Below, piece after piece: positions 8,334-63,913 of a DNA stretch of 64,000 nucleotides. The notes under the pieces are model-generated. The model saw nothing but the letters and a program-made list of their open reading frames with translations, did not search any database and was not told the origin of the DNA. Made by a program: the position numbers and the translations under genes. The first letter of the stretch is position 1. The number at the start of each line of letters is the position of its first letter. Source of the DNA: Rhodospirillaceae bacterium (GTDB taxonomy: Bacteria; Pseudomonadota; Alphaproteobacteria; Bin65); NCBI GenBank assembly GCA_028819475.1, contig JAPPLJ010000030.1, positions 405,358 to 469,357 of the forward strand. The letters are read 5' to 3'.

Positions 8334-9074
8334 TCAGTACAGCACCTTTTCCAGATACAGCCCGCAGGCGGGGGCGGTGGCGCCGGCCTTCCTGCGGTCC
8401 GCGGCGCGCAGGACCGTGGCCAGCCAGGTGACGGGCTTCTTGCCTTCGCCGACAAGGATGAGCGTACCCACGATATTGCGCACCTGATGGTGCAGGAAGG
8501 ACGGCGCGCGGAGTGCAACCTCGATCTCCCCGCCGTAGCGCGATACCCGGATATCCGTGAGCGTCTTGACCGGCGATTTTGCCTGGCATTCCGCGGCGCG
8601 GAAGCTGGTGAAATCGTGATGGCCAATCAGCGGCAGCGCCGCCTCGTGCATCGCACCGGCGTCAAGCGGCCGGCCGACCTGCCACGCCTTGCCGGCGTCG
8701 AGGGTGAGCGGCGCACGCCGGTTGACGATGCGGTAGCGGTAGCGCCGCTCGACGGCGGAGAAGCGGGCGTGGAAGCCTTCATCCACCGTCTCGGCGTCGG
8801 TCACCGCAATGGGCCGGGGCTTCAGGTGGTAGTTCAGCGCCTCCTTGATCCGGAAGGGCTCGGCCTCGCGCGCGATGTCGACATGCGCGACCTGGGCCAG
8901 CGCGTGGACGCCCGAATCGGTCCGCCCGGCGGCGTAGGCGACGGCCTGCTCGCCGCAGAACTTCTCGACCGCCTCTTCGAGACATTGCTGGACCGAGAGG
9001 CCGTTCTCCTGCCGCTGCCAGCCGACGAACGGCCCGCCATCGTATTCCAGCGTCAGCTTGAAACGGCGGCTCAC
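8334..9074 (-). CDS. truA: tRNA pseudouridine(38-40) synthase TruA
   Basis: 246 residues. TruA converts uridines 38-40 in the anticodon stem-loop of many tRNAs to pseudouridine. The catalytic aspartate is in AAGRTDSGVHA (near residue 52). The N-terminus RFKLTLEYDGGPFVGWQRQ and the C-terminal FLHHQVRNIVGTL are typical. I chose the GTG at 9074: it overlaps the fmt stop (GTGA) and gives the standard N-terminus; upstream codons in this frame only extend into fmt. It is the last gene of def-fmt-truA. Confidence 0.95.
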   Translation of the reverse strand: MSRRFKLTLEYDGGPFVGWQRQENGLSVQQCLEEAVEKFCGEQAVAYAAGRTDSGVHALAQVAHVDIAREAEPFRIKEALNYHLKPRPIAVTDAETVDEGFHARFSAVERRYRYRIVNRRAPLTLDAGKAWQVGRPLDAGAMHEAALPLIGHHDFTSFRAAECQAKSPVKTLTDIRVSRYGGEIEVALRAPSFLHHQVRNIVGTLILVGEGKKPVTWLATVLRAADRRKAGATAPACGLYLEKVLY

Positions 9075-9994
9075 GACAGGATCGTCCCGGCCGGAATGGC
9101 AAAGCCCCGTTGCAAGTCTGCGGCAGCCATCGGGTCCTTGCCCTGGCGCTGCACCCGGAGCGGCCGCAGGGCGCCCTCGCCGCAGGCGACCGTCAGGTTG
9201 CCGTCCAGCACCGTTCCGGGCGCGCCGGCCCCCTCGGAAAGTTCGGCGCACAGAACCCGGATGCGCTGGCCGCCCGCGTCGAAGAAGGCGCCGGGCGCGG
9301 GATCGAAAGCACGCACGGTCCGCTCGATATGCGCCGCCGGTTGCGACCAGTCGATCCGCGCTTCGGACTTGGCGATCTTGCGGGCGTAGGTGGCGCCCGA
9401 CCCGGGCTGAAGCCGCGGTGCGAGATCGCCTGCCGCTGTACCGTCGAGCCAGGCCAGCACCTCCGCCATCGCTTCCGCTCCCAGCGCCGCCAGTTCGTCG
9501 TGCAACCCGCCGGCGGTCGTGCCATCGGAAATCGGAACGCGCCGTTGCATCAGGATCGGCCCGGTATCGAGGCCCGCGTCCATTTGCATGATCGTGATTC
9601 CCGTCTCGGCGTCGCCGGCCTGGATCGCGCGCTGGATCGGCGCCGCGCCGCGCCAGCGCGGCAGCAGCGAGGCATGGATGTTGAGACAGCCGTGCACCGG
9701 CGTATCGAGAACCGCCTGGGGCAGGATCAGTCCGTAGGCGGCGACGATCGCCGCGTCCGCCTTCAGGGCTGTAAATTCCGCCACCGCCTCCTGTTCGGCA
9801 AACGAGGCCGGAGTGCGCACCGGCAGGCCCCGGCTCTCGGCCCAGACCTGGACCGGCGAAGGCCGCAGCGCCTTGCCCCGCCCGGCCCGGCGCGGCGGCC
9901 GGGTATAGACGCCAGCCAGGTCGTGCCCTGCCGCGGCCAGCGCCTTCACGGCCACGAGGGCGAATTCCGGCGTGCCCATGAAGATCAGCCGCAT
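9071..9994 (-). CDS. fmt: Methionyl-tRNA formyltransferase
   Basis: 307 residues. Formylates initiator Met-tRNA using 10-formyl-tetrahydrofolate. It begins MRLIFMGTPEFALVAV. The catalytic region contains NIHASLLPRWRGAAPIQRAI (Asn and His of the active site) and LDTGPIL, followed by the C-terminal OB-like domain that binds tRNA. It lies 55 bases downstream of def, the enzyme that removes the formyl group, and overlaps truA by four bases. Confidence 0.97.
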   Translation of the reverse strand: MRLIFMGTPEFALVAVKALAAAGHDLAGVYTRPPRRAGRGKALRPSPVQVWAESRGLPVRTPASFAEQEAVAEFTALKADAAIVAAYGLILPQAVLDTPVHGCLNIHASLLPRWRGAAPIQRAIQAGDAETGITIMQMDAGLDTGPILMQRRVPISDGTTAGGLHDELAALGAEAMAEVLAWLDGTAAGDLAPRLQPGSGATYARKIAKSEARIDWSQPAAHIERTVRAFDPAPGAFFDAGGQRIRVLCAELSEGAGAPGTVLDGNLTVACGEGALRPLRVQRQGKDPMAAADLQRGFAIPAGTILS

Positions 9995-10049
9995 GGCGGT
10001 TTCCGGGGATCGGTCCGACGCGGCCGGGCCGGCGGCCGGCCGGTCAGGA

Positions 10050-10580
10050 TTATGCGGGCGCCGCCTCTTTCGCGGCGAGCTTCTTCTCTTTCAGCAGCTT
10101 GCGCAGGATCATGTTGCGCTTTAGCGCGCTGATGTGATCGATGAACAGGATGCCGTCCAGATGATCGATTTCGTGCTGGACACAGGTCGCGAGCAGGCCG
10201 TCGGCGTGCAGCTCGCGGCTTGCGCCGTCGCGGTCGAGATAGCGGACCCGGACCTCAGCCGGCCTGACGACGTCGGCATAGTGTTCCGGGACGCTCAGGC
10301 ATCCCTCCTCGTGAGTATTGTCGTGGTCCGAGACCCAGAGGATTTCCGGGTTGGCGAGCACATGCGGCGCGGGCGGGCCATCCTTCTCCGAAACGTCGAC
10401 CACGATCACGCGCTTGAGAACGCCGACCTGTGGCGCAGCCAGGCCGATGCCCGGCGCGGCGTACATGGTCTCGAGCATGTCGTCCATCAGCCTGCGCACG
10501 CCGGCGTCGACCTTCTCGACGGGCCTGGATTTCTTCTTCAGACGCGGGTCGGGCGCGGTCAGGATCGGCAGCAGCGCCAT
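10050..10580 (-). CDS. def: Peptide deformylase
   Basis: 176 residues. Fe/Zn hydrolase that removes the N-formyl group from nascent proteins. All three family motifs are visible: GIGLAAPQ (about residues 45-52), EGCLSVPE (about 92-99; Cys is a metal ligand) and QHEIDHLDG (about 134-142; two His ligands and the catalytic Glu). It is first in def-fmt-truA on the minus strand and divergent from rmuC across 195 bases. Confidence 0.97.
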   Translation of the reverse strand: MALLPILTAPDPRLKKKSRPVEKVDAGVRRLMDDMLETMYAAPGIGLAAPQVGVLKRVIVVDVSEKDGPPAPHVLANPEILWVSDHDNTHEEGCLSVPEHYADVVRPAEVRVRYLDRDGASRELHADGLLATCVQHEIDHLDGILFIDHISALKRNMILRKLLKEKKLAAKEAAPA

Positions 10581-10775
10581 CGCGGAGTCACCCCGGAAAA
10601 GACCGGTTTCAAGCGTTTTTCATCGGGTCGCAGATAGGGCCGGCGGGCCGAAAGGTCAACGAAACGGCGGGCCTGGCCGGCCGGGGCCCGCCGGCGCGAA
10701 TCGCCCGGAAATGCGCCGCAATCCACAAGAAATAAGCATGGCCGGCGCACGGGCTTGTGATAGGAAGTTCGCGCC

Positions 10776-11870
10776 ATGACCGGAGCGGATCCCCTCACCC
10801 TGATCGTTCTGGGCGCAGCGGTTCTTCTTGCGCTGATCGTCCTGTTCGTCGCGCTGCGCGCCAGCCGCGGCCAAGCAGAGATCGCTGCGCAGCTCGGCCG
10901 CATGGCGGAGCAGCAGGACAACATCCGGGACTCCTTCCACACGCGCTTGCAGGAACAGGAACGGGCAATCTCCGAGCGGTTGGAAGGGGTTACCCGGCGG
11001 GTCGGCGCCAGCCTCGAAACCAGTACGGAAAAGACCGGCGAATCCCTGCAACAGATCCGCGAGCGCCTGGCGGTGATGGACCAGGCGCAGAAGAAGATCA
11101 CCGACCTGTCGGAGCAGATGGTTAGCTTGCAAGACATTCTGACCGACAAACAGGCACGCGGCGCGTTCGGCGAAATGCAACTGCGCGACCTGGTCGAGAG
11201 CATCCTTCCGCCGAGCACCTACGCCTTCCAGGCGACACTCGACAACGGCCGGCGGCCCGATTGCCTGCTTAATTTGCCGGACCCGCCCGGCCCGATCGCC
11301 ATCGACGCCAAGTTTCCGCTGGAGAGCTGGCAGAAGTTGCAGAAGGCCGAGACTAAACAAGAGCGCGACCAAGCGGGACGCGATTTCAGCCGGGACATCG
11401 GCAACCACGTCCGCGATATCCGGGAACGATACATCGTGCCCGGCGAGACCGGCGACGCGGCGCTGATGTTCCTGCCGTCGGAGAGCGTCTATGCCGAACT
11501 GCACGCCAACCATGCCAACGCCGTCGAGCAGAGCTTCCGGCAAAAGGTCTTCATCGTCTCGCCGACGACATTGTGGGCGACGCTCAACACGGTGCGCGCC
11601 GTGTTCCGCGACGTGCGGATGCGCGAGCAGGCCCACCTGATCCAGAAAGAGGTCGAGACCATGATTGCCGACGTCGGCCGGCTCGACGACCGGGTCGGCA
11701 AACTGGCGACGCATTTCGACCAGGCGAAGCGGGATATCGACCAAATCCAGATTTCGACGGGCAAGATCGCCAACCGCGGCGAGAAGATCTCCGAACTGGA
11801 CCTCGAGCAGGAGGATGGCGCGGCCGACAGCCAGGCGCCGGGCCGGCTCTCCGCCCCGCCCGCCGGCTGA
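10776..11870 (+). CDS. rmuC: DNA recombination protein RmuC
   Basis: 364 residues. RmuC-family proteins are predicted nucleases that limit inversions at short inverted repeats. It has one N-terminal membrane helix (about residues 8-27), a long coiled coil (about 35-120), and the conserved core with GAFGEMQLRDLVESILPPS, AIDAKFPLESW and MFLPSESVYAEL. The C-terminal third is again helical. The carotenoid-oxygenase gene follows 40 bases later on the same strand. Confidence 0.9.
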   Translation: MTGADPLTLIVLGAAVLLALIVLFVALRASRGQAEIAAQLGRMAEQQDNIRDSFHTRLQEQERAISERLEGVTRRVGASLETSTEKTGESLQQIRERLAVMDQAQKKITDLSEQMVSLQDILTDKQARGAFGEMQLRDLVESILPPSTYAFQATLDNGRRPDCLLNLPDPPGPIAIDAKFPLESWQKLQKAETKQERDQAGRDFSRDIGNHVRDIRERYIVPGETGDAALMFLPSESVYAELHANHANAVEQSFRQKVFIVSPTTLWATLNTVRAVFRDVRMREQAHLIQKEVETMIADVGRLDDRVGKLATHFDQAKRDIDQIQISTGKIANRGEKISELDLEQEDGAADSQAPGRLSAPPAG

Positions 11871-11910
11871 AGCGCCGCGCCGGCAACGGGCCCCGGGCCG
11901 AGGATACGCC

Positions 11911-13329
11911 ATGGACATGACGATCAACGACCTCAATCCTTATCTCCAAGGTCTCTATGCGCCGGTCGAAAGGGAAATCGTGGCGGCGGATCTGGAGGTC
12001 GTGGGCGAAATTCCGCGCGACCTGTTCGGCGGCTACTGCCGCAACGGCCCCAATCCTGCGCGGCCGCCCACCGGCATGCATCACTGGTTCGACGGCGACG
12101 CTATGATCCATGCCGTCTGGTTCGAGGACGGCAGGGCGACCTACCGCAACCGCTATGTCCGGACCAAGGACCATCTCGCCGGGCTTGCCGGGGAATGCGC
12201 AGCCGGGGGAATCCTGGAACCTGCGAGCCGCGGGCGCGACGGAACGGCATACAAGGATACGGCGAACACCGACCTCGTCGTCCACAACGGCGCGCTGATG
12301 GCGCTCTGGTATATCTGCGGCGCGCCGGTCCGGGTCGATCCGCTGACACTCGAGACGATCGGGGAGGAGACCTTCTCCGGCCGGCTGCCGCGCCGGGTCT
12401 CCGCTCACGCCAAGACCGACGGCCGGACCGGCGAGCTCCTGTTCTTCGACTATGCGCTGTACGAGCCGTGGATGTCGTTCGGCGTCGTCGGCGCCGACAA
12501 CGAACTGAAGCATTTCACGCAGATCGAACTGCCCGGCCCGCGCCTGCCGCACGACATGGGCATCACGGAGAATTACGCGATCCTGCACGACCTCCCGGTG
12601 ATCTTCACAGAGCGGGGGATGCTGCAGGGCCTGTGGACCATCCACCAGCCGCGCGACCTGCCGACCCGGTTCGGCGTTCTGCCGCGCACCGGACGCGGCG
12701 ACGAAATCCGGTGGTTCGAGACCGATCCCTGTTACATCTATCATGTGGTCAATTGCTGGGAGGATGGCGACGAGGTCGTCATGCACGCCTGCAGGATGAT
12801 CCCGAACGACCTTGCGCCGGACGCGCAATACGGCGCCTACGCGCCCATGGTGGCGCTGCTGGCGCTGCACGCCGTTCCGGTTGAATGGCGCATGAACCTG
12901 AAGACCGGCGGGATCGCCGAGCGCCAGCTCGACGACCGGCTCGGCGAGTTTCCGGCGGTGAACCAGGACTGGGTCGGCCGCAAGGGCCGCCACTCCTACC
13001 ATGTTTCCCTGGAAGGCTCCGGCATGCTCCTGTTCGACGGGCTGCTGAAATACGACCTGGAAACCGGCGGCTGCGTCGAGCACCGCTTCGCGCCGGGCGT
13101 GTACGGTTCCGAAGCCGTCTTCGCGCCCCGGCCCGGCGCCGCCGAAGAGGATGACGGCTATGTCGTCACCGTCACAGCCGACCGGGCGGACGGCCGCTCC
13201 GAAGCGCAGGTCTTCGACGCGCGGGCGCTCGACGCCGGACCGCTCGCGCGGGTGAAGTTACCGCAGCGCGTGCCACTCGGCTTCCACGCCACCTGGGCGA
13301 GCGGCGAGCGGGTCGGAATCGCGGCATAA
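11911..13329 (+). CDS. Carotenoid oxygenase (RPE65) family dioxygenase
   Basis: 472 residues. The family uses Fe(II) held by four histidines to cleave C=C bonds in carotenoids, apocarotenoids or lignin-type stilbenes. All four His regions can be matched: SAHAKTD (near 165), LPHDMGITENYAILHD (near 215), YHVVNCWEDGDEVVMHA (near 280) and the C-terminal GFHATW (near 460). The N-terminus contains the family's GEIPRDLFGGYCRNGPNPA. I chose the ATG at 11911, which has a GAGGA just upstream; the frame runs further upstream only as a shadow of rmuC. No carotenoid synthesis genes are nearby, so a stilbene- or lignin-derived substrate is as likely as a carotenoid. Confidence 0.87.
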   Translation: MDMTINDLNPYLQGLYAPVEREIVAADLEVVGEIPRDLFGGYCRNGPNPARPPTGMHHWFDGDAMIHAVWFEDGRATYRNRYVRTKDHLAGLAGECAAGGILEPASRGRDGTAYKDTANTDLVVHNGALMALWYICGAPVRVDPLTLETIGEETFSGRLPRRVSAHAKTDGRTGELLFFDYALYEPWMSFGVVGADNELKHFTQIELPGPRLPHDMGITENYAILHDLPVIFTERGMLQGLWTIHQPRDLPTRFGVLPRTGRGDEIRWFETDPCYIYHVVNCWEDGDEVVMHACRMIPNDLAPDAQYGAYAPMVALLALHAVPVEWRMNLKTGGIAERQLDDRLGEFPAVNQDWVGRKGRHSYHVSLEGSGMLLFDGLLKYDLETGGCVEHRFAPGVYGSEAVFAPRPGAAEEDDGYVVTVTADRADGRSEAQVFDARALDAGPLARVKLPQRVPLGFHATWASGERVGIAA

Positions 13330-13456
13330 GGGCGGCCGGGCCGGACAGGCCGGCAACGACCGCCTCATTCACAGGAAGCGCCGCCGCGCAGGCGGCGCAG
13401 CGTGCCGACCCGATTGCCGCGCCGGGCGGATCGCCGGACGAAGGTCGAGGATGCGG

Positions 13457-13741
13457 TCAGCCCGACTTTTCGGTTGTCGGATCGATCATCTTGCCGATGG
13501 CCGTCACCCTGGTCGCCGGGAAGCCGCTGATTTCCGCGTGCTTGTGAATGAGATCCTCGTTCTTCGCCAAGTAGACGCAGAATGTCTTGTCCGCCGCAAC
13601 GTAGTTTTCCACCCACTGGATGTCCGGACCGAGCTGGGCCAGGACCTCGTTCGACTTTGCGGCGGCCTCGGCGAGCTGCTGGCGTTCGAGGGTTCCGACC
13701 TCGGGGATGTCGCGTTCGATGATGAATTTGTTGAGCGCCAT
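13457..13741 (-). CDS. DUF4242 (SCO4226-like) small protein
   Basis: 94 residues resembling the DUF4242 family, whose studied member SCO4226 is a small ferredoxin-like-fold protein that binds nickel. The beginning FIIERDIPEVGTLE and the middle VENYVAADKTFCVYLA match the family pattern, followed by HKHAEISGFPATRV with conserved histidines. It stands alone on the minus strand, 99 bases downstream of the 2-hydroxyacid dehydrogenase gene. The role here is unknown. Confidence 0.75.
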   Translation of the reverse strand: MALNKFIIERDIPEVGTLERQQLAEAAAKSNEVLAQLGPDIQWVENYVAADKTFCVYLAKNEDLIHKHAEISGFPATRVTAIGKMIDPTTEKSG

Positions 13742-13840
13742 GACGTCCTCCTGTGTTTCCGTCTGAAATTACCACAATCCGGTCTGCGGCTCACTCGCAG
13801 CTGATCGCGCAGTTTCAAAACGCGAGGAACGGCCGGGCCG

Positions 13841-14770
13841 CTAATAACCGGCGGTGCGGTCGACTTCCTGAAGCAGCGGCCGGCCGGCCTCGCAGCGCCT
13901 GATGTTGGCGACGATCTGTGGCGCCAGTTGCGCGATGTTTGGGCGTCGCGCGACATGGGGCATGACGGTCACCCCGGGGTGATCCCAGAGCGGGCTGTCC
14001 GGCGGCAGCGGCTCGGGGGAATGCGCATCGAGGGCGGCGTGGCAGAGATGGCCCGAATCCAGTGCCGCGATCAGGTCGCCGGTCACCACATGCTCGCCGC
14101 GGCCGATATTGATGACCATGCCGCCCTCGGGCATTTTTGCAAACGCCGCCGCATTCAGGATGCCGCGGGTCTTCCCGGTCAGGGGCAGCAGGCAGACGAC
14201 GATGTCCGAGCGCTCGAGGATCGCGTCGAACCGGCCGGCGCCGGCGTAGACGGGGATCTCCGCACCGGGCTTGGGCGTCCGCGTCCAGGCGGCGACATCG
14301 AAGCCCATGTCGCGCAGGATACGGGCCGGTTTCCGCGCCATGACCCCGTAGCCGAGGAAGCCGACGGTGCGGTCCTCGGGCCGTTTCTGCCGGATCTCCC
14401 GCCATTCCCTGCGGGCCTGGCGCTCCCGGTAGGTCGGCATGTTGCGATGCAGCCGCAGCACATGCATGACGACGTATTCGGTCATCATCGGATCGCCGTC
14501 TTCCGGCTCCAGTTTGGAGAGAGGAACGTCCGGCAGCCCGGGATGCCCGATGAAGCCGTCGACCCCCGCCTGACGAGTCAGCATCGCCTTAAGGTTCGGG
14601 AATTCCGGCCATTCGTCCGGGGCGGGGCGGGTGAAGGCCAGATACTCGATATCGGCCGGGTCGCCGACATCGGGCCAGAAGCGCACGTCCAGGTCCGGCA
14701 ATTCGGCATTGACGGCCGCTCGCCAGTCCTCGGGCGTTCCCATCTTGAGGTCGATTATCAGCAGCGCCAT
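13841..14770 (-). CDS. Glyoxylate/hydroxypyruvate reductase A-type D-2-hydroxyacid dehydrogenase
   Basis: 309 residues. NAD(P)H-linked reduction of glyoxylate or hydroxypyruvate (GhrA-like) is the likely reaction. The Rossmann segment reads VGFLGYGVMA near residue 135, so the last Gly of the usual GxGxxG is Ala. NIGRGEHVVTGDL (near 225) and the catalytic region ALDAHSPEPLPPDSPLW with a later PHVARRPN (His) are present. The substrate cannot be fixed from sequence, so no gene symbol is given. Confidence 0.82.
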   Translation of the reverse strand: MALLIIDLKMGTPEDWRAAVNAELPDLDVRFWPDVGDPADIEYLAFTRPAPDEWPEFPNLKAMLTRQAGVDGFIGHPGLPDVPLSKLEPEDGDPMMTEYVVMHVLRLHRNMPTYRERQARREWREIRQKRPEDRTVGFLGYGVMARKPARILRDMGFDVAAWTRTPKPGAEIPVYAGAGRFDAILERSDIVVCLLPLTGKTRGILNAAAFAKMPEGGMVINIGRGEHVVTGDLIAALDSGHLCHAALDAHSPEPLPPDSPLWDHPGVTVMPHVARRPNIAQLAPQIVANIRRCEAGRPLLQEVDRTAGY

Positions 14771-14932
14771 GGTCTTTCGCTCCGGCCGGAATGACTGATT
14801 TGATCGACCGTATGTGCGAGCGTGTCAAAAGATAATCGGCGAAGGGTTCAGGACAGCGAAACCGGCGCCACTCCGATCCCGGCGCGGCGCGGGAGGGGCT
14901 CATCCGGGCCCCTGTCCTGTTTCGCCTGCCGC

Positions 14933-15319
14933 TCAGTCCCCGATGTGGGCGGTGGACGCGATCTCGACCAGGAACTCCGGTTTCACCAGATCGGCGCGAA
15001 TGCAGTAGCGGGCCGGCGGATCGGCGGGGAAATACTCCCGGTACACCTCGTTCATTCCGGCATAGTCGCCGAGGTCGCTCAGGAAAATCTGGTTGAAGGT
15101 AATGTCCGCCAAGGACCCTCCGGCCGCTTCCAGGACCGCCTTGATCGCCTCCAGGACGTGCCGCGTCTGCGCCTTCACGTCGCCCGCGCCGACCAGGTTG
15201 CCCCCGGCGTCGAGGGCGACAATACCCGAAACATACACGGCATCGCCGGCGCGCGCGCCGGGCGAATAGGGTGCAAGCGGGGGCGCGGAGCCCTCCGGAA
15301 CGATTATCTCGTATGGCAT
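14933..15319 (-). CDS. RidA/YjgF/Rut C-like family protein
   Basis: 128 residues, the usual length for the trimeric Rid family, whose members hydrolyse reactive enamine/imine intermediates or take part in catabolic pathways. [12 protein letters not shown] near the N-terminus, [20 protein letters not shown] in the middle and the final [14 protein letters not shown] fit. The Arg near residue 105 (ARYCIRADL) occupies the usual substrate-binding position. No rut or pyrimidine-degradation genes are nearby. Same strand as ccoS but separated from it by 119 bases. Confidence 0.85.
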
Positions 15320-15438
15320 GCGTTTCTCTCCTTCTGGTGGTTGGCTCGCAACGGGGCCGCGCGGCGATTATACAGGGCGGCCGGCCCGCAGACAGCTTCC
15401 GCGACACCAACGGCACGGCGCGGGTACCGGGCTGCCGC

Positions 15439-15588
15439 CTACTCCGGTTCGTCGTCGTCGAGCAGAATGCGTTCGGCCGCGCCTTCGGGGTCGTCGAACT
15501 GGCCCGAGCGCGTCGCCCAAAGGAAGCCGATCAGGCCAATCCCGCCGAGCAGCAGCGCGATCGGGATCAGGTAGACCAGCACGCTCAT
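15439..15588 (-). CDS. ccoS: cbb3-type cytochrome oxidase assembly protein CcoS
   Basis: 49-residue single-span membrane protein required for inserting cofactors into cbb3 oxidase. One hydrophobic segment (about residues 4-24, MSVLVYLIPIALLLGGIG) is followed by a short acidic tail with the family's FDDPEGAAERIL. I chose the ATG at 15588, which overlaps the ccoI stop as ATGA; a longer upstream reading only runs into ccoI. It is last of the eight cco genes. Confidence 0.9.
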   Translation of the reverse strand: MSVLVYLIPIALLLGGIGLIGFLWATRSGQFDDPEGAAERILLDDDEPE

Positions 15589-17855
15589 CGGGACGCCTCT
15601 GCCGCCCGGCGCGACCGGCCGGCCAGCCGGATTGCGTTCAGTACAACGACGATGGACGAGCCCGACATGCACAGCGCCGCGACCAACGGCGTGACCAGCC
15701 CGGCGACGGCGAGCGGAACGGCGAACAGGTTGTAGCCGACGGCAAGTCCGATGTTCTGACGGACCAGCGCCTGCGCCCGGCGCGCGACGGTCAGCGCCTC
15801 CGCCACCGGCTGCAGCGACCGGCTCTGGAATACGATGTCTGCGGCGACCTGGGCGATGTCCGCCGCGCCCGACGGTGAGATCGAGGCATGGGCGGCGGCA
15901 AGCGCCGGCGCGTCGTTCAGTCCGTCGCCGACCATCAGGACTCGGGCGCCGGCTTCACGCAGGGACGCCAGCGCCGCCAGCTTGTCCTGTGGCATGCATC
16001 CGCCGCGCCAGTCCTTGATGCCAACGGCGGCGGCGACGGCGGCCACCGCGTCCGGCCGATCGCCGGACAGCAGCACCGGGCGGAGGCCGGCATTGCGCAG
16101 GATCGCGACCGTCCGGGCCGCGTCCGGGCGCAGGGCGTCCTCAAAGCGGAAACGGACCGGCGCCGCTCCGGGCCGGGAGAGCCAGATCTCGCTACCGGGC
16201 GCGGAAGTGCCGCCGGCGGGGTCTTCGGCAATGCCGCACCAGTCCGCCCGGCCGAGCCGGATATCGCCTTGCCCGGTCGCCAGGCTCAGGCCGCAGCCCG
16301 GCGTTTCGGCGACTCCCGCCGCCGGAGCGATAGCGGGCGCGGCGGCGCAGAGCGCGCGCGACAGCGGATGGCGGCTGTTCGCGGCGAGCGAGGCTGCCAG
16401 TTCCAGCGCCTCCCCGGAAACCGCCTCACTATCGACCAGCGCCGGCGCGCCGAGGGTGAGGGTCCCCGTCTTGTCGAAGACGACGGTATCCGCGGCGGCA
16501 AGGCGCTCCAGCGCGTCGCCGGACTTGACGAGCACGCCCCGGCGCAGCAGCCGGCCCGTCGCCACGACCTGGACGACCGGCACGGCCAGGCCGAGCGCGC
16601 AGGGGCAGGTGACGATCAGCACGGCGATGGCGATCAGCAGGGCGGGCTGCCAGGCCATTCCGCCAAGCAGAATCCAGCCGAGAAATGCCAGCAGCGCCAG
16701 CGTGTGGACCACCGGTGCGTAGAGGCGGGACACCCGGTCTGCCAGCGCGACATAGTCCGACTTGCGTTGTTCGGCGGCTTCGGTGAGCCGGACGATATCG
16801 GCCAGCACCGTCCCGTCGCCGGCCGCGGTGACCTCGACCTCGATCGGCCCGGTGAGATTGACGGCGCCGGCATGGACCGCCGCACCGGGCTCAACGGGAA
16901 TGGCTGCAGATTCGCCGGTCATCAGGCTGGCGTCGATCTCCGACCGGCCGCGGCGGACGATGCCGTCGGCGGCCAGCCGCTCGCCCGCCGCTACCGCAAG
17001 CCTCATGCCCGCCGCAAGTTCCGCAGCGGGTATTTGACTGGTCAGCCCGTCCGCACCGATCACCGTTACGCGGCCATCCTGCAGCGCGATCAGCCGGGCC
17101 GCGGCGGACTGCGCCTGACGCCGGGCGCGCCGGTCGAGAAAGCGCCCGATCAGCAGGAAGAACAACAGGGCGATGGCAGAATCGAAATAGGCATGCGGCC
17201 CGCCGCGGATCGTTTCCCACAGGCTGACTCCGGCCGCCAGCGTCACCGCGAGCGCAATCGGCACGTCCATGTTGGTCCGGCCGGCGCGCAGGGCCTTCAG
17301 CGCCGAGCGGAAGAAGGGCCGCCCGGCCCAAGCCAGCGCCGGCAGGGCGATCAGCGCCGAGAACCAGTGGAACAGACTGCGGGTCTCGGCCGCCATGCCT
17401 TCGGCGTGGCCCGTCCAGATCGACAGCGACAGCAGCATGACATTGGCCGCGGCGAAACCGGCGACTGCCATGCAGCGGACCATCTCCCGTTCTTCCGCGG
17501 CGGTCCGGACCGGCAGGCTTTCTGGCACGAGGATCGAGGCGTCATAGCCGGCAGCGCGCAGAGCGGCGACGAAGCGTTCGCCGGAACCCTGGCCTTTGGC
17601 CGAGTCCGGTCCCAATGCGCCGGCCTCCGCGTCGCGCCAGCGGACGCGCACCCGCCCCTGGGTCAGGTTCGCCCGGGCCCAATCGACTCCGGGCAACGCA
17701 GCGAGGGCCCCTTCGACCTTCGCGATGCAGGCGCCGCAATGCATGCCGTCCACATGCAGGCTGACCTCGCGGATCGCGGGTAACGATGCAGGATCGTCGC
17801 GCCCTCCCGGCGCCCGCGGCACGGCGGCTGCGGCCGTATCGGACGAGGCGGCCAT
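15585..17855 (-). CDS. ccoI: Copper-transporting P1B-type ATPase CcoI/FixI
   Basis: 756 residues. Pumps copper across the inner membrane for assembly of the CuB centre of cbb3 oxidase. An N-terminal heavy-metal-binding domain has GMHCGAC (about residues 37-43). The ion path CPC is in TCPCALGLAVP, the phosphorylated Asp in DKTGTLT, and the hinge in VGDGLNDAPALA. I chose the ATG at 17855 because it overlaps the ccoH stop (TGATG). It sits between ccoH and ccoS in the standard ccoGHIS order. Confidence 0.95.
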   Translation of the reverse strand: MAASSDTAAAAVPRAPGGRDDPASLPAIREVSLHVDGMHCGACIAKVEGALAALPGVDWARANLTQGRVRVRWRDAEAGALGPDSAKGQGSGERFVAALRAAGYDASILVPESLPVRTAAEEREMVRCMAVAGFAAANVMLLSLSIWTGHAEGMAAETRSLFHWFSALIALPALAWAGRPFFRSALKALRAGRTNMDVPIALAVTLAAGVSLWETIRGGPHAYFDSAIALLFFLLIGRFLDRRARRQAQSAAARLIALQDGRVTVIGADGLTSQIPAAELAAGMRLAVAAGERLAADGIVRRGRSEIDASLMTGESAAIPVEPGAAVHAGAVNLTGPIEVEVTAAGDGTVLADIVRLTEAAEQRKSDYVALADRVSRLYAPVVHTLALLAFLGWILLGGMAWQPALLIAIAVLIVTCPCALGLAVPVVQVVATGRLLRRGVLVKSGDALERLAAADTVVFDKTGTLTLGAPALVDSEAVSGEALELAASLAANSRHPLSRALCAAAPAIAPAAGVAETPGCGLSLATGQGDIRLGRADWCGIAEDPAGGTSAPGSEIWLSRPGAAPVRFRFEDALRPDAARTVAILRNAGLRPVLLSGDRPDAVAAVAAAVGIKDWRGGCMPQDKLAALASLREAGARVLMVGDGLNDAPALAAAHASISPSGAADIAQVAADIVFQSRSLQPVAEALTVARRAQALVRQNIGLAVGYNLFAVPLAVAGLVTPLVAALCMSGSSIVVVLNAIRLAGRSRRAAEASR

Positions 17856-58872: not shown

Positions 58873-58948
<76 letters not shown>

Positions 58949-59023
58949 GAACCCGCCTGATCAAGACCCTCTTGGGCAATATTTTCCGTGAATCGCCGGC
59001 GCGCCGCGCGTAAGGAAAGCGGC

Positions 59024-59752
59024 GTGACACAGGATGCCGACACCCTGACGGTCGAGGTCTGGCGCGGCGATGCGCGCGGCGGCGGCTATGTCGCCTATGC
59101 GGTGCCGCGGCGGGAGAGCCAGACGGTCCTCGACGTCGTGACCTGGATCCAGCAGAACGCCGAGCCGGCGCTGGCCTACCGCTTTGCCTGCCGGGTCGGC
59201 ATGTGCGGCTCCTGCGCCATGACGGTGAACGGCGCGCCGCGCTGGACCTGCCGGACCCATGTCCGCCGGGTGGCAAAGGCCGGGCGGCTACACATCGCGC
59301 CGCTGCGCAACCTGCCGGTGATCCGGGACCTTGCCGCCGACCTGGCGCCCTTCTTCGACAAGTGGACGGCGGCAGGCGGCGCCTTCGCCCCGACCGCGAC
59401 CCGCGACGACCCGCCGGCGGAAATTCCGCCGCAAACGCCGGAGCGGGCGGCGGCGGACGCCGGCATCGAATGCATCAACTGCGCGGTCTGCTACGCCGCC
59501 TGCGATACCGTGGCGATGGCGCCGGACTATCTCGGCCCGGCGGCGCTCAACCGGGCCTGGACGCTCGTCAACGACGCGCGGGACGGCGGGCAGGCGGCGC
59601 GGATCGCGGCGGTATCGGGCGGCAACGGCTGCGCCAACTGCCATTCGCACCAGAGCTGCGCCGAGCTGTGCCCGAACGGGCTGAGCCCGACCGCGGCGAT
59701 CGCCGGGCTGAAGCGCGCGGCCGGCCGCGCCTGGCTGCGTGGCGGCGCGTAA
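59024..59752 (+). CDS. Succinate dehydrogenase/fumarate reductase-like iron-sulfur subunit
   Basis: 242 residues. Carries electrons between the flavoprotein and the membrane quinone site. The [2Fe-2S] site CRVGMCGSC...C is near residues 58-80. The second domain has CINCAVCYAAC (near 148) for [4Fe-4S] and CHSHQSCAELCPNGL (near 210) for [3Fe-4S]. I chose the GTG at 59024, which has AAGGAAA five bases upstream; a GTG at 58988 is possible but has no Shine-Dalgarno. First of a six-gene cluster. Confidence 0.88.
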   Translation: MTQDADTLTVEVWRGDARGGGYVAYAVPRRESQTVLDVVTWIQQNAEPALAYRFACRVGMCGSCAMTVNGAPRWTCRTHVRRVAKAGRLHIAPLRNLPVIRDLAADLAPFFDKWTAAGGAFAPTATRDDPPAEIPPQTPERAAADAGIECINCAVCYAACDTVAMAPDYLGPAALNRAWTLVNDARDGGQAARIAAVSGGNGCANCHSHQSCAELCPNGLSPTAAIAGLKRAAGRAWLRGGA

Positions 59753-59756
59753 CGCC

Positions 59757-60086
59757 GTGACGGACATCCGGCTCTACATGCTGCAACGGATCAGCGCCAT
59801 GATCCTCGCGCCGCTGATCGTCGGCCATATCGCGACCATGATCGTCGCGGTGCAGAACGGGCTGAGCGCGGCGGAAATCCTCGGCCGGACCCAGGGCAGC
59901 ATCTGGTGGGGCCTGTTCTATGGCCTGTTCGTCGCCGCGGTGTCGGTCCATGCCGCCATCGGCCTGCGCACGGTCGCCTTCGAATGGCTGAAGCTGAAGG
60001 GCCGCGCGCTCGACCTGCTCGCCTGGGCTGTCTTCGCCGGCCTGCTGATCCTCGGCGCGCGCGCCGTCGCGGCGGTGGTGCTGTGA
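59757..60086 (+). CDS. Membrane anchor subunit, SDH/FRD type (first)
   Basis: 109 residues, three membrane helices (about 12-32, 50-72 and 82-105). Histidines in LIVGHIATM (near 23) and AVSVHAAIGL (near 65) could bind heme b. Starts at a GTG (59757) five bases after the iron-sulfur gene; a GTG at 59739 inside that gene is an alternative. It corresponds to SdhC or FrdC. Confidence 0.8.
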   Translation: MTDIRLYMLQRISAMILAPLIVGHIATMIVAVQNGLSAAEILGRTQGSIWWGLFYGLFVAAVSVHAAIGLRTVAFEWLKLKGRALDLLAWAVFAGLLILGARAVAAVVL

Positions 60087-60472
60087 CGGCTTCATCGGCC
60101 GCGCCGAAGGCCCAGGTTCGCGCCCGAATTCACGCGGGCGCGCATCGCGGCCATCCGCTGTGGATCGCCTGGCTGGTCCACCGCCTGTCCGGTCTCGCCC
60201 TGGCCCTCTTCCTGCCCGCCCACTTTCTCGTGCTCGGCCTGGCGCTCACCGATCCCGCCGCGCTGGACGGCGCGTTGCGCTGGATGGACAACCCCTGGGT
60301 CAAGGCGGCGGAAACCGGCCTCGTCCTGCTGCTCGGCCTGCACCTGTTCGGCGGCCTGCGGCTGCTCGCGCTCGAATTCCTGCCCTGGTCGCCGCGCCAG
60401 AAGACCCTCGCCGCCGCCGCCGTCGCGCTGGCCTGTGCGGTTTCGGTCGGCTTCCTGCTGAGCGCGGTCTGA
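60083..60472 (+). CDS. Membrane anchor subunit, SDH/FRD type (second)
   Basis: 129 residues, three membrane helices (about 30-52, 68-92 and 105-125). WIAWLVHRLSGLALALFLPA has the His-Arg-Ser pattern of SDH/FRD anchors, and LLLGLHLFGGLR holds another candidate heme ligand. Its GTG start overlaps the preceding stop (GTGA). It would form the quinone site with the first anchor. Confidence 0.8.
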   Translation: MTASSAAPKAQVRARIHAGAHRGHPLWIAWLVHRLSGLALALFLPAHFLVLGLALTDPAALDGALRWMDNPWVKAAETGLVLLLGLHLFGGLRLLALEFLPWSPRQKTLAAAAVALACAVSVGFLLSAV

Positions 60473-60495
60473 CCCGTGCCGGGAACGCCCGAAAC

Positions 60496-62265
60496 ATGAT
60501 GGCCGCGGACCTCGAGCGGCACAATGCCGACATCCTGATCGTCGGCGCGGGCGGGGCCGGCCTGTTCGCGGCCCTGCACGCCTGCCGGGCGGCGCCCGAA
60601 CTGTCCGTGACGATCGCCGTCAAGGGCCTGCTCGGCAAGTCCGGCTGCACCCGCATGGTCCAGGGCGGCTACAATGTGGCGCTCGGCCCCGGCGATTCGG
60701 TCGAGCGGCATTTTATGGACACGATCGCCGGCGGCAAGTGGCTGCCGCACCAGGAGATGGCGTGGCGGCTGTGCGAGACCGCGCCGGTGCGCGTCCGCGA
60801 GCTGGAAAACGAGATCGGCTGCTTCTTCGACCGCAACCCGGACGGCACGCTGCACCAGAAGGCCTTCGCCGGCCAGTCCTTCGACCGGACGGTCCACAAG
60901 GGCGACCTGACCGGCATCGAGATCGTCAACCGGCTGATGGAGCAGGTCCTCGCCCGGCCGGTCGACCGGCTGGAGGAACACCGGGCGCTCGCCCTTGTGC
61001 CGGACCGCGCGGGCGGGGCGCTCGCCGGCGTGCTGTTCGCCGACATGCGCAGCGGCGCCTTCCGCTTCGTCCGGGCGCGCGCCGTGCTGCTGGCGACCGG
61101 CGGCGGGCCGACCATGTACCGCTACCACACGCCGTCCGGCGACAAGAGCATGGACGGGCTGGCCATGGCCCTGCGCCGCGGCCTGCCCCTGCGCGACATG
61201 GAAATGGTGCAGTTCCATCCGACCGGCCTGCTCGCCGGACCGGACACGCGCATGACCGGCACGGTGCTGGAGGAAGGGCTGCGCGGCGCCGGCGGCCACC
61301 TGCTGGACGGCGACGGCCGGCGCTTCATGTTCGATCACGACGAGGCGGGCGAGCGCGCGACCCGCGACATCGTCAGCCGGGCGATCTTCGAGGAGATGCG
61401 CAAGGGCCGGACGACGCCCAACGGCGGCGTCTACATCGCCATGAGCCATCTGGGGCCGGAGACGGTGCGCGACCGGTTCGGCGGCATGGTAAGGCGCTGC
61501 GCCGACAGCGGCTTCGATCTCGCCGGCGGGCGGGTCGAGGTCGTGCCGACGGCGCATTATTTCATGGGCGGCCTGGTCTGCGACCCCGATACGCGCACGG
61601 ACCTGCCCGGCCTCTACGTCGCCGGGGAGGACGCCGGCGGCGCCCACGGCGCCAACCGGCTCGGCGGCAACGGGGTGGCCAACTCGACGGTCTTCGGCGG
61701 CATCGCCGGCGACACGATGGCGAGGGACCTGGCCGGCCCGGGCGCGCCCTTCCGCAACCCGGACGAAGACCTGCTGGCGGCGGAAATCGACCGCGCCCTG
61801 CACCCGTTCGGCCGGGCCGGTTCGGGAGGTCCGGCGGGCGATGTGCACGCGCTGCGCCGGCGGCTCATGGACCTGATGTGGGACGATGCCGGCGTCATCC
61901 GGACCGCCGATTGCCTCCGGCGCGCGGTTGCGCAGCTCGGCGAGTTGAAGGCGGAACTGCTGGACACCGGCCTCGCCGATACGGGCCGGGTCTTCAACCT
62001 GACCTGGCACGACTGGCTGAACCTGCGCAGCCTGGTCGAGGTCTCGGAAGCGGTCGCGGCCGCCGCCCTGGCGCGGGAAAACTCCTGCGGCGCCCATTAC
62101 CGGGAGGATTGCCCGGACGAGGGCGACCCGGCCGCCGCCAGCTTCACCGTGATCCGCCGGGACGGCGGCGGCCTTGATGTTTCGCGCCAGCCGGTCAATT
62201 TCTCCATCGTGCAGCCGGGCGAGTCGCTGCTCGGCGAAGACCATGCCACGCTCGCCGCGGTCTGA
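60496..62265 (+). CDS. Succinate dehydrogenase/fumarate reductase-like flavoprotein with atypical FAD site
   Basis: 589 residues. FAD-binding GAGGAG is at residues 17-22. Catalytic residues of the family are visible: QFHPTG (near 239), EGLRGAGG (near 262), PTAHYFMGG (near 354) and GANRLGGNGVANS (near 389). At the place where SdhA has the FAD-linking His (S-H-T before AAQGG), this protein reads G-Cys51-T before RMVQGG, so covalent histidyl FAD is not possible. I chose the ATG at 60496, with another ATG directly after. Substrate may be succinate/fumarate or a related dicarboxylate. Confidence 0.85.
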   Translation: MMAADLERHNADILIVGAGGAGLFAALHACRAAPELSVTIAVKGLLGKSGCTRMVQGGYNVALGPGDSVERHFMDTIAGGKWLPHQEMAWRLCETAPVRVRELENEIGCFFDRNPDGTLHQKAFAGQSFDRTVHKGDLTGIEIVNRLMEQVLARPVDRLEEHRALALVPDRAGGALAGVLFADMRSGAFRFVRARAVLLATGGGPTMYRYHTPSGDKSMDGLAMALRRGLPLRDMEMVQFHPTGLLAGPDTRMTGTVLEEGLRGAGGHLLDGDGRRFMFDHDEAGERATRDIVSRAIFEEMRKGRTTPNGGVYIAMSHLGPETVRDRFGGMVRRCADSGFDLAGGRVEVVPTAHYFMGGLVCDPDTRTDLPGLYVAGEDAGGAHGANRLGGNGVANSTVFGGIAGDTMARDLAGPGAPFRNPDEDLLAAEIDRALHPFGRAGSGGPAGDVHALRRRLMDLMWDDAGVIRTADCLRRAVAQLGELKAELLDTGLADTGRVFNLTWHDWLNLRSLVEVSEAVAAAALARENSCGAHYREDCPDEGDPAAASFTVIRRDGGGLDVSRQPVNFSIVQPGESLLGEDHATLAAV

Positions 62266-62288
62266 CCGGAGATCGGGCTGAAAGAGAC

Positions 62289-63257
62289 ATGCCGATGATC
62301 GCCATCGACAGCATCCACCGCACCGCGCTCACCCTGATGAGCAAGGCGGCGATCGAGATTCCCGACGATTATCTCGACGGGCTGCGCCGGGCCGCCGACG
62401 CGGAGGACGGCGATCTCTCCTCCTTCGTGCTGGAGGCCATGCTGGAGAATTACGACGCCGCCAAGGAGGACGGCCGGGCCATGTGCGGCGATACCGGCTG
62501 CCCGCGCTGGTACGTCAAGCTGGCCAACGAAGCGCAGGTGGAAGGCGGCCCGGTGGCGCTCGAACAGGCGCTGCGCCGGGCGACGGCGGACGCGACGCAC
62601 AACATTCCCCTGCGCCCGAACCGGGTCCACCCACTCTGGCGCACCGACCACGACAACAATGTCGGCATCGCCGCGCCGGAGATCGAGGTCGCCTTCGAGC
62701 CGGACGGCGACTGGATCGACCTCACGACCGTCCACAAGGGCGGCCTGTTCGGCACCGACTACCGGATGCTGTTCCCGTCCGACGGGATCGAGGGCATCAA
62801 GCGCTTCTACCTCGATTCGCTGGTCGCCTTCGGCAAGCGCGGCCTGGCCTGCCAACCGGCGATTATCGGCATCGGCCTGGGCGGCTCCAAGGATGCCTGC
62901 ATGGTGCTCGGCAAGCGCGCGGCCTGCCTGCGCGCGGTCGGCGACCGCAACCCGGACTTGGAGATCGCGGCGCTGGAGCGGGAGTTCATCGAGCTCGGCA
63001 ACAGCATCGGCATGGGTGCCATGGGATTCGTCGGCAAGTCCATGGTCGTCGATTGCCATATCGAGGTCGGCTACTGCCACACCGGCGGCATGCAGATGAG
63101 CGTGCACGCCTTCTGCCTGTCGTCGCGCCGCGCCTGCGCCCGGCTCCACGGCGACGGCCGGGTCGAATACCGCACCGATCCGCTGTGGTTCACGCCGTAC
63201 CAGCGCCGCGAGACGGTCGAGTGGCCGCCGGCCGCGGTTGCAGCGGCGGTCGCATGA
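62289..63257 (+). CDS. Class I fumarate hydratase (or tartrate dehydratase), alpha subunit
   Basis: 322 residues. Two-subunit class I hydro-lyases use an oxygen-sensitive [4Fe-4S] cluster. MCGDTGCPRWYVKLA (near 64-78) holds one cluster Cys, with NIPLRPNRVHPLW following. GIGLGGSKDACMVLGKRA (near 196) and GYCHTGGMQMSVHAFC (near 260) match FumA/TtdA-type enzymes. It starts 23 bases after the flavoprotein. Fumarase is favoured because of the linked SDH/FRD genes, but tartrate dehydratase is related. Confidence 0.85.
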   Translation: MPMIAIDSIHRTALTLMSKAAIEIPDDYLDGLRRAADAEDGDLSSFVLEAMLENYDAAKEDGRAMCGDTGCPRWYVKLANEAQVEGGPVALEQALRRATADATHNIPLRPNRVHPLWRTDHDNNVGIAAPEIEVAFEPDGDWIDLTTVHKGGLFGTDYRMLFPSDGIEGIKRFYLDSLVAFGKRGLACQPAIIGIGLGGSKDACMVLGKRAACLRAVGDRNPDLEIAALEREFIELGNSIGMGAMGFVGKSMVVDCHIEVGYCHTGGMQMSVHAFCLSSRRACARLHGDGRVEYRTDPLWFTPYQRRETVEWPPAAVAAAVA

Positions 63258-63913
63258 ACAAAGTCCGGCTGAGCACGACTCCGGACCGGGCGGCGCTCGC
63301 CGCGCTGTCCCTGGGCGACGTCGTCTATCTGGACGGCACGGTCTACACCGCCCGGGAAGGCGTCTACCGGCGCGTCGTCGAGGACGGCGAGGCCCTGCCG
63401 TTCGACCCGGCGGCCGTGAGCGCCACCAACTTCCACTGCTCACCGGCCGCCACGATCGAGGCCGACGGCAGCTACAGGGTCGGCGCGGTGACGGCGACCG
63501 CCTCCTTCCGCTTCAGCAAATGGATCGGCCCCTGGCTCGACCGCTCCGGCGCGACGCTGATCCTCGGCAAGGGCGGCATGAACCCGGAGGACTACCGCAA
63601 CCATTTCGTGCGCAACGGCGCGGTCTATCTCACCACCGTCGGCTACGGCACCGGCGCCCTGCTCGGCCGCGGCATCCGGCGGGTGAAGGACGTGCACTGG
63701 CGCGAGAAACTCGGCCTCGCCCAGGCGGTCTGGGTCATCGAGGTCGAAAATTTCGGTCCCTTCCTGGTCGAGAGCGACCTTGAGGGCAACAGCCTGTTCG
63801 AGCGCGAGAACGCCAAGATCGCCGCCGGGCTGGACCGGGTCTACGAAGGCACCCGCCCGGCCGTCATGAAACGCTTCGGCGAAACCGACGACCGCCGCGA
63901 CGAGATGATTTGA
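63254..63913 (+). CDS. Class I fumarate hydratase (or tartrate dehydratase), beta subunit
   Basis: 219 residues. LSLGDVVYLDGTVYTARE near residue 20, HCSPAATI near 62 and ATASFRFSKWIGPWLDRSGA near 84 match the beta subunit (FumA C-terminal domain/TtdB). GKGGMNPEDYRNHF and AVYLTTVGYGTGALL are also typical. The ATG overlaps the alpha-subunit stop (ATGA). Last gene of the six-gene cluster; the remaining 87 bases of the window show no gene or terminator. Confidence 0.87.
   Translation: MNKVRLSTTPDRAALAALSLGDVVYLDGTVYTAREGVYRRVVEDGEALPFDPAAVSATNFHCSPAATIEADGSYRVGAVTATASFRFSKWIGPWLDRSGATLILGKGGMNPEDYRNHFVRNGAVYLTTVGYGTGALLGRGIRRVKDVHWREKLGLAQAVWVIEVENFGPFLVESDLEGNSLFERENAKIAAGLDRVYEGTRPAVMKRFGETDDRRDEMI

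Follow-up and report, generated by a model that had tools for sequence, protein, structure and literature searches.

A candidate 3-sulfopropionate oxidation operon assembled from relatives of complex II and class I fumarase in a Rhodospirillaceae bacterium

What purpose is served by an operon that joins relatives of succinate dehydrogenase and fumarase in a genome that encodes both enzymes elsewhere? The question is raised by a stretch of 64,000 nucleotides (hereafter the window) from a Rhodospirillaceae bacterium (GenBank assembly GCA_028819475.1, contig JAPPLJ010000030.1, positions 405,358 to 469,357 of the forward strand), which forms the end of its contig (C30) in an assembly of 4.48 Mb that is 96% complete. 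Six coupled genes at 59024-63913 on the + strand encode, in this order, an iron-sulfur subunit, two membrane anchors, a flavoprotein and the alpha and beta subunits of a fumarase. This operon very probably serves sulfonate breakdown, because of the sulfite-disposal genes that neighbour it in relatives, the islands that it shares with SlcC, ComC and SuyAB, and its co-occurrence with SuyB. With fair confidence, we further propose from the sequences that its products would constitute a membrane 3-sulfopropionate:quinone oxidoreductase and a sulfoacrylate hydratase. The genes and the codons discussed below are the following.

59024..59752, + strand: SdhB/FrdB-like iron-sulfur subunit, 242 amino acids (profile searches)
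59739..60086, + strand: first membrane anchor (Sdh_cyt), with a likely start at GTG 59757 (profile searches)
60083..60472, + strand: second membrane anchor (succ_dehyd_cytB, 52.9 bits for a cut-off of 52.3)
60496..62265, + strand: flavoprotein, 589 amino acids, proposed 3-sulfopropionate-oxidising subunit (profile searches, clade support 97/99)
60646..60648, + strand: codon TGC of Cys51, replacing the histidine that links flavin adenine dinucleotide (FAD) (GCTRMVQGG in 89/89 homologues)
60652..60654, + strand: codon of Arg53, replacing Val47 of FrdA, numbering including Met1 (89/89)
61270..61272, + strand: codon of Glu259, replacing the substrate-binding Thr of FrdA/SdhA (89/89)
62289..63257, + strand: class I fumarase alpha-type subunit, 322 amino acids, proposed sulfoacrylate hydratase (profile searches, conserved Cys)
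63254..63913, + strand: class I fumarase beta-type subunit, 219 amino acids (profile searches; 4-base overlap with the alpha stop)

NCBIfam and Pfam profiles named the products SdhB/FrdB-like, Sdh_cyt (twice), FAD_binding_2 with Succ_DH_flav_C, Fumerase and Fumerase_C. Together with the open reading frame coordinates, they bore out the gene order and strand given in a preliminary description of this DNA; the start of the cluster, placed there at an earlier in-frame GTG (58988), is better set at the GTG at 59024, which has GGAAAG upstream. A tRNA-Ala (CGC) gene lies directly upstream of the operon, at 58873-58948. The gene order is conserved in relatives: among 80 genome loci, the best 80 of at least 587 confirmed relatives in the genome collection, SdhB was found at 73, fumA (alpha) at 71 and fumB (beta) at 66. 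With 35 of the 80 loci covering less than 13 kb, some of the missing genes are due to contig ends. As SdhB, fumA and fumB are found at most of these loci, the six-gene order is not a matter of chance.

A second, canonical sdhCDAB, which the preliminary description proposed to look for, is present separately in the genome and keeps the FAD histidine (RSHT). The class II fumarase FumC is encoded too (781 bits, cut-off 664.75), and the alpha subunit of the operon is the only PF05681 match in the genome. Because canonical sdhCDAB and FumC are also encoded, the operon is an extra and not the tricarboxylic acid cycle pair, and a housekeeping role in that cycle was rejected. Nor is it the only succinate dehydrogenase of the genome with normal covalent FAD, as its flavoprotein has no histidine at the linking position.

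To describe this position, we aligned 94 flavoproteins, namely 89 members of the group (the window, the 80 genome loci, six proteobacterial plasmid copies and two haloarchaeal proteins) and five references (E. coli SdhA and FrdA, and the SdhA and two paralogues, L003 and L004, of the window's own genome). The flavoprotein has the features of a complex II subunit, with FAD_binding_2, Succ_DH_flav_C and the catalytic Arg/His set. It lacks the histidine that forms 8alpha-N3-histidyl FAD, and has Gly50-Cys51 instead in 89/89 members. The cysteine noticed earlier at this site was thus confirmed: Cys51 occupies the place of the FAD-linking histidine when residues are counted back from QGG. One extra residue precedes Cys51, and MAFFT places Gly50 rather than Cys51 under the histidine; either way, no histidine stands at the FAD position. 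The motif GK[SC]GCTRMVQGG is invariant in the 89 members and absent from the five references of this one alignment. As to the dicarboxylate-binding residues described as kept, HPTG, EGxRGxGG, the PTAH histidine and GANRLGG are indeed present, but the Thr preceding EGxRGxGG is now Glu259, a Glu in 89/89. In FrdA this Thr is T244, which lies in the capping domain and is proposed to twist fumarate and form a hydrogen bond with it (PMC5773532). Given this role, a change of substrate is expected from the sequence.

Among solved structures, SdhA and FrdA come closest to the flavoprotein in sequence. It has matches to 31 NCBIfam families and scores below the cut-off in each of the 25 examined, including the SdhA/FrdA subfamily model (409.7 bits, cut-off 567.3). 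The best model is TfrA (NF004900); the operon differs from TfrA in having membrane anchors, and thiol:fumarate reductase TfrAB was rejected because the cut-off was missed (462.8 for 718). L-aspartate oxidase NadB was rejected as well (TIGR00551, 357.8 for 452.75), since NadB is soluble without an iron-sulfur partner whereas here iron-sulfur and anchor genes are coupled to the flavoprotein. In a tree of 30 proteins, the Cys51 group, Rhodococcus RHA1 and the haloarchaea included, forms one side of a branch with a support of 97/99; deeper forks of this tree are unsure owing to long branches elsewhere, including FrdA. The nearest named flavoproteins come from Rhodospirillaceae metagenome-assembled genomes, including Spongia_Bin9. 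Regarding the two paralogues of the same genome, L003 (G000:C13, 1465-3642) is an SdhA-like flavoprotein with a small 2Fe-2S protein in which only 2Fe-2S domains matched, flanked, as judged by eye, by a cysteine synthase gene on one side and an ATP-binding cassette (ABC) permease gene on the other. L004 (G000:C16, 529-3384) has an SdhB-like partner and lacks the HPTG substrate histidine.

The active site bears directly on the possibility that the complex reduces fumarate, or is a second one for oxidising succinate, and has a fumarase of its own. The complex II fold families and the conserved catalytic Arg and His are in agreement with such a complex. Moreover, the histidyl bond is described as lifting the FAD potential and thereby enabling succinate oxidation by complex II, while relatives with non-covalent FAD only reduce fumarate, so that loss of the link favours reduction in the relatives studied (PMC9557727). 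A simple oxidising role is disfavoured on the same grounds, unless the potential is raised otherwise. However, the Thr-to-Glu change in 89/89 members, the sulfonate and sulfite neighbours and SuyB co-occurrence described below, and the aerobic appearance of many hosts, as inferred from organism names, argue against a fumarate or succinate enzyme, which we hold to be quite improbable. The fumarate-respiration module (malate to fumarate to succinate) put forward in the preliminary description is likewise unsupported, as sulfolactate cleavage and sulfite disposal are the roles of SuyB, which co-occurs with the operon, and of many genes that neighbour it in relatives. The other suggestion made there, in which the enzyme acts on a related dicarboxylate and its flavin is non-covalent or even cysteinyl, comes near to the assignment that we favour, the difference being that a sulfonate analogue of succinate is the likely substrate.

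The iron-sulfur subunit carries the cysteine sets for three predicted clusters. Twelve cysteines are conserved among 85 matches and are kept wherever covered, except for one Ala at Cys203 (Cys in 83/84); the usual count for this type of subunit is eleven. Cys203 (window 59630-59632) is the extra conserved cysteine, adjoins the usual cluster ligands and could alter the third iron-sulfur centre. Both anchors have haem-type histidines: His30 (85/85 aligned matches) and His71 (86/86) in the first and His47 (88/88) and His87 (87/87) in the second are predicted haem ligands. Because four membrane histidines are conserved across the anchors, we predict that they hold two b haems rather than one. Overall, the operon resembles complex II (SdhABCD/FrdABCD) in its four-subunit plan, FAD and iron-sulfur subunits, Sdh_cyt anchors, catalytic Arg and substrate His and Arg. 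In contrast, it has Cys51 for the FAD-linking His, Glu for the substrate Thr, four conserved anchor histidines suggesting two haems, the order B-C-D-A, and sulfonate neighbours in relatives.

These neighbours were sought at the 80 loci by tblastn, using queries that represent each family (E ≤1e-12, half of the query or more covered); in view of the 35 short loci, the counts are lower bounds. TauE was found at 26 loci, sulfite dehydrogenase at 7 and YeiH at 3, which gives 32 loci with any of the three. The other neighbours were LysR (40), TctC (17), TctA (11), a thiamine pyrophosphate (TPP) enzyme (11), a CoA-transferase (9) and a NIPSNAP-family protein (8, e.g. L031, L087, L089 and L092, in addition to three plasmid copies). 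The Paracoccus versutus pTAV3 copy is accompanied by YeiH, NIPSNAP, TauE, LysR, Ldh-family and hydroxyacid dehydrogenases and a tripartite tricarboxylate transporter (TTT), as well as by SlcC-like and ComC-like genes, the latter below the cut-off of the ComC model (204 for 500). The NT-25 plasmid copy has YeiH, NIPSNAP, TauE and a tripartite ATP-independent periplasmic (TRAP) transporter, and a 'sulfolactaldehyde 3-reductase' lies close to it. A sulfite dehydrogenase, a second sulfite-oxidase-family enzyme, a sulfate-exporter-family protein and TauE surround the copy on a Methylobacterium nodulans plasmid, and a TTT transporter, TauE, sulfate exporter family and sulfite oxidase that of Pseudomonas MPC6. 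Genes for a semialdehyde dehydrogenase and a TPP enzyme, and a weak match to TauE, accompany the copy in C. necator N-1. A TTT transporter is encoded in both P. seriniphilus and Sulfitobacter S190; in the former YeiH lies about 7 kb past fumB, and the stretch examined in the latter holds no sulfite gene. In two haloarchaea the flavoprotein and iron-sulfur subunit are kept together with TauE, a SuyB-like UxaA pair and a lyase of the ArgH superfamily; no fumarase is listed near them.

In two alphaproteobacterial genomes (G044 and G128), a single island holds SdhB, the flavoprotein, a second type of fumarase, TauE, a SuyA-like protein, SuyB, SlcC and ComC. We measured co-occurrence in 289 alphaproteobacterial genomes, with E ≤1e-150 for the flavoprotein and E ≤1e-60 for SuyB (query from the window's genome). 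The flavoprotein was found in 22/289, SuyB in 25/289 and both in 15. SuyB thus occurs in 15/22 flavoprotein genomes against 10/267 others (Fisher p = 1e-13) and, without the window's own genus, in 12/19 against 10/266 (p = 5e-11), although such p values serve as a guide only because genomes of one class are related. A formamidase encoded on the same contig as SuyB, used as control and present in 17/289, gave 2/22 against 15/267 (p = 0.38); it took the place of paralogue L003, which was too rare (2/289 genomes at E ≤1e-120). Xsc, in 32/289 genomes, gave 7/22 against 25/267 (p = 0.005). Within the own genus, the flavoprotein and SuyB occur together in three genomes, and a fourth, G065, has neither. 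In relatives the operon is thus linked to, or co-occurs with, genes for desulfonation and sulfite handling, whereas these genes are not adjacent to it in the window itself. In the window's genome, contig C67 carries SuyB- and SuyA-like genes, a TRAP transporter and HpsN (664 bits to the solved dehydrogenase of (R)-2,3-dihydroxypropane-1-sulfonate (DHPS)), and Xsc is encoded on contig C65. The C67 genes stand together with a LacI-like regulator (L113, G000:C67:149001-167000, positions 8528-15955), and from its sequence this stretch is likely a module leading from (R)-DHPS through sulfolactate to pyruvate.

From these data we infer the following substrate, direction of reaction, hydratase product and position of hydration. 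The substrate would be 3-sulfopropionate, an analogue of succinate in which one carboxylate is swapped for a sulfonate. The complex II relative would remove two hydrogens to give 3-sulfoacrylate, the corresponding analogue of fumarate, and the electrons would pass through the three predicted iron-sulfur clusters and the predicted two-haem anchor to quinone. The class I fumarase relative would then hydrate 3-sulfoacrylate to sulfolactate, which SuyAB would split, the sulfite being exported or oxidised by the products of neighbouring genes. We favour 3-sulfopropionate because each of the six genes would keep the chemistry of its family, and because the sulfolactate and the sulfite neighbours are both explained. 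The scheme shares islands or genomes with the sulfolactate branch of C3-sulfonate catabolism (racemisation by SlcC/ComC, SuyAB, TauE). DHPS, sulfolactaldehyde and sulfolactate are described as entries to this branch (PMC9594981, PMC12330013, PMC12421959), to which the operon would add one from 3-sulfopropionate. The same sulfite-handling neighbours, and the retained substrate His and Arg residues, would also fit a larger sulfonated dicarboxylate, for instance sulfosuccinate converted through sulfofumarate to oxaloacetate and sulfite. But SlcC, ComC and SuyAB in shared islands, which need a sulfolactate intermediate, would then go unexplained, and the searches, over the portions of the literature that they covered, found nothing on genes for sulfosuccinate breakdown; we judge such a substrate improbable.

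The fumarase subunits are members of the class I family by PF05681, PF05683 and three conserved predicted cluster cysteines (Cys66, Cys188 and Cys276 of the alpha subunit), as are the two-subunit class I fumarases, TtdAB and the FumA type. The alpha subunit exceeds the TIGR00722 subfamily cut-off (208 for 101) and the beta subunit falls below that of TIGR00723 (116 for 145). Unlike established fumarases and L-tartrate dehydratases, both score under the equivalog cut-offs: the fumarate hydratase models PRK06246 and PRK06043 gave 198.7 for 276 and 120.7 for 269, and L-tartrate dehydratase was rejected in the same way. The loci of 21 of the 22 flavoprotein genomes were read (all except G274), and the second fumarase subtype is present at seven of them (G044, G087, G122, G128, G200, G226 and G231). 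SuyB is found in 7/7 of these genomes and in 8/15 of the remaining flavoprotein genomes (p = 0.05), which include G274 and also G288, with no fumarase found at its locus.

This difference is in line with another outcome after the same first step: a window-type fumarase might hydrate the sulfonated carbon and release malonate semialdehyde and sulfite via a bisulfite adduct, making SuyAB unneeded. In Pseudomonas MPC6, a CoA-acylating (methyl)malonate-semialdehyde dehydrogenase directly follows fumB (695 bits, cut-off 448.5), the C. necator N-1 operon has a 61% homologue no more than 5 kb away, and window-type operons are flanked by sulfite-disposal genes. On the other hand, this dehydrogenase family is present at only three of the 80 loci, with 27-29% identity, the window's genome retains SuyAB-like genes, and Roseovarius nubinhibens, whose fumarase is of the window subtype, runs via sulfolactate according to the second-hand account given below. 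We consider a desulfonating fumarase possible but doubtful. More speculative, and unlikely in our view, is a combined scheme in which Cys51 would form 8alpha-S-cysteinyl FAD, raising the potential enough for quinone-linked oxidation of 3-sulfopropionate by a two-haem complex, while the partner fumarase desulfonates at the sulfonated carbon. To our knowledge, this thioether flavin is not known from complex II.

At nine loci (L015, L018, L047, L053, L066, L070 at 8857-10032, L075, L079 and L080), a CaiB-type class III CoA-transferase gene is inserted between fumA and fumB. It could belong to a methylsuccinate, mesaconate and citramalate pathway composed of a dehydrogenase, a mesaconase-type class I fumarase and a class III CoA-transferase. 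Its nearest models are far below cut-off (succinate-glutarate CoA-transferase, 209 for 750; mesaconate CoA-transferase, 203 for 700), no CoA-transferase was found between fumA and fumB at the other loci, and the sulfite and sulfolactate genes would be left unexplained, which makes this pathway very improbable.

3-Sulfopropionate is reported to arise from sulfoquinovose and DHPS in Enterococcus gilvus, and from homotaurine in Burkholderia and Cupriavidus; the same source gives its degradation as unreported beyond one thesis, and its use by Bilophila as a source of electron acceptor as proceeding by an unknown route (PMC11489063). Its degradation is also said to need investigation (PMC9594981). 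No gene assigned to it was found in the literature searched, which took in no subscription papers, no preprints and not the thesis itself. According to the thesis, as cited in PMC11489063, Roseovarius nubinhibens ISM degrades 3-sulfopropionate via sulfoacrylate and sulfolactate. This strain is our locus L047, with the order TTT transporter-SdhB-C-D-A-fumA-CaiB-fumB and a fumA 82% identical to that of the window. We had proposed 3-sulfopropionate from gene context before this link emerged. In a second report, nine proteins encoded by the cluster MDP0926751-761 (11 locus numbers) rise when P. wurundjeri grows on sulfofucose; the cluster is labelled as fumarate and tartrate metabolism, perhaps Krebs cycle, and its seventh locus, 757, is a TauE homologue (PMC12421959). 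P. onubensis (L058), which is not the closest relative of the P. wurundjeri strain by 16S, has the six operon genes, TauE in seventh place, LysR, and ABC substrate-binding, permease and ATPase genes, 11 in all; the induced cluster matches this one by gene count and TauE position.

Several observations weigh against our proposal. Chemically, oxidation of 3-sulfopropionate without a histidyl link would need a flavin potential raised by Cys51 or its surroundings. In relatives, 48 of the 80 loci, among which 35 are shorter than 13 kb, show none of TauE, sulfite dehydrogenase and YeiH. The Rhodococcus RHA1 locus is without any sulfite or sulfolactate family at E 1e-8, and the own-genus loci L006, L007, L115 and L116 without any searched sulfonate family near the operon, which stands alone in that genus; the window's contig stops at the window end. 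The lyase of the haloarchaea passes the argH cut-off (323 for 279.5) and falls short of that of the model for XcbC (260 for 575), the enzyme that makes sulfoacrylate in coenzyme M synthesis. SuyB is missing from seven of the 22 flavoprotein genomes, in five of which Xsc is missing as well, and the Xsc association is gone without the own genus (p = 0.10). SuyB was assigned from its context and its membership of PF04295/PF20629, the first of which is the family given for SuyAB (PMC9594981), rather than from a model specific to SuyAB. The CoA-transferase, TPP enzyme and NIPSNAP protein linked to the operon are not explained by the scheme. As for the published evidence, the thesis account of R. 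nubinhibens reaches us second-hand, through one sentence of PMC11489063, and induction on sulfofucose does not by itself implicate 3-sulfopropionate, the authors tying the cluster to the Krebs cycle (PMC12421959).

Two loci deserve separate mention. On pRHL1 of Rhodococcus jostii RHA1 (L135, 8318-13089) lies an actinobacterial version of the operon, with a flavoprotein at 51%, which may have another substrate. In a genome of the window's own genus (L115, 4982-5956), a gene resembling the 3-hydroxyisobutyrate dehydrogenase family by eye lies about 1 kb past fumB.

The operon encodes a variant form of complex II that very probably belongs to sulfonate catabolism, a known field. If our assignment is true, genes could be named for the breakdown of 3-sulfopropionate, and complex II would have been reused for a sulfonate. 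GCTRMVQGG together with EEG would then be a genome marker for 3-sulfopropionate oxidation, and the induced Paracoccus cluster linked to the Krebs cycle would have an alternative reading. The operon also raises a question of flavin chemistry, namely by what means a complex II could oxidise its substrate when the histidyl link is absent.

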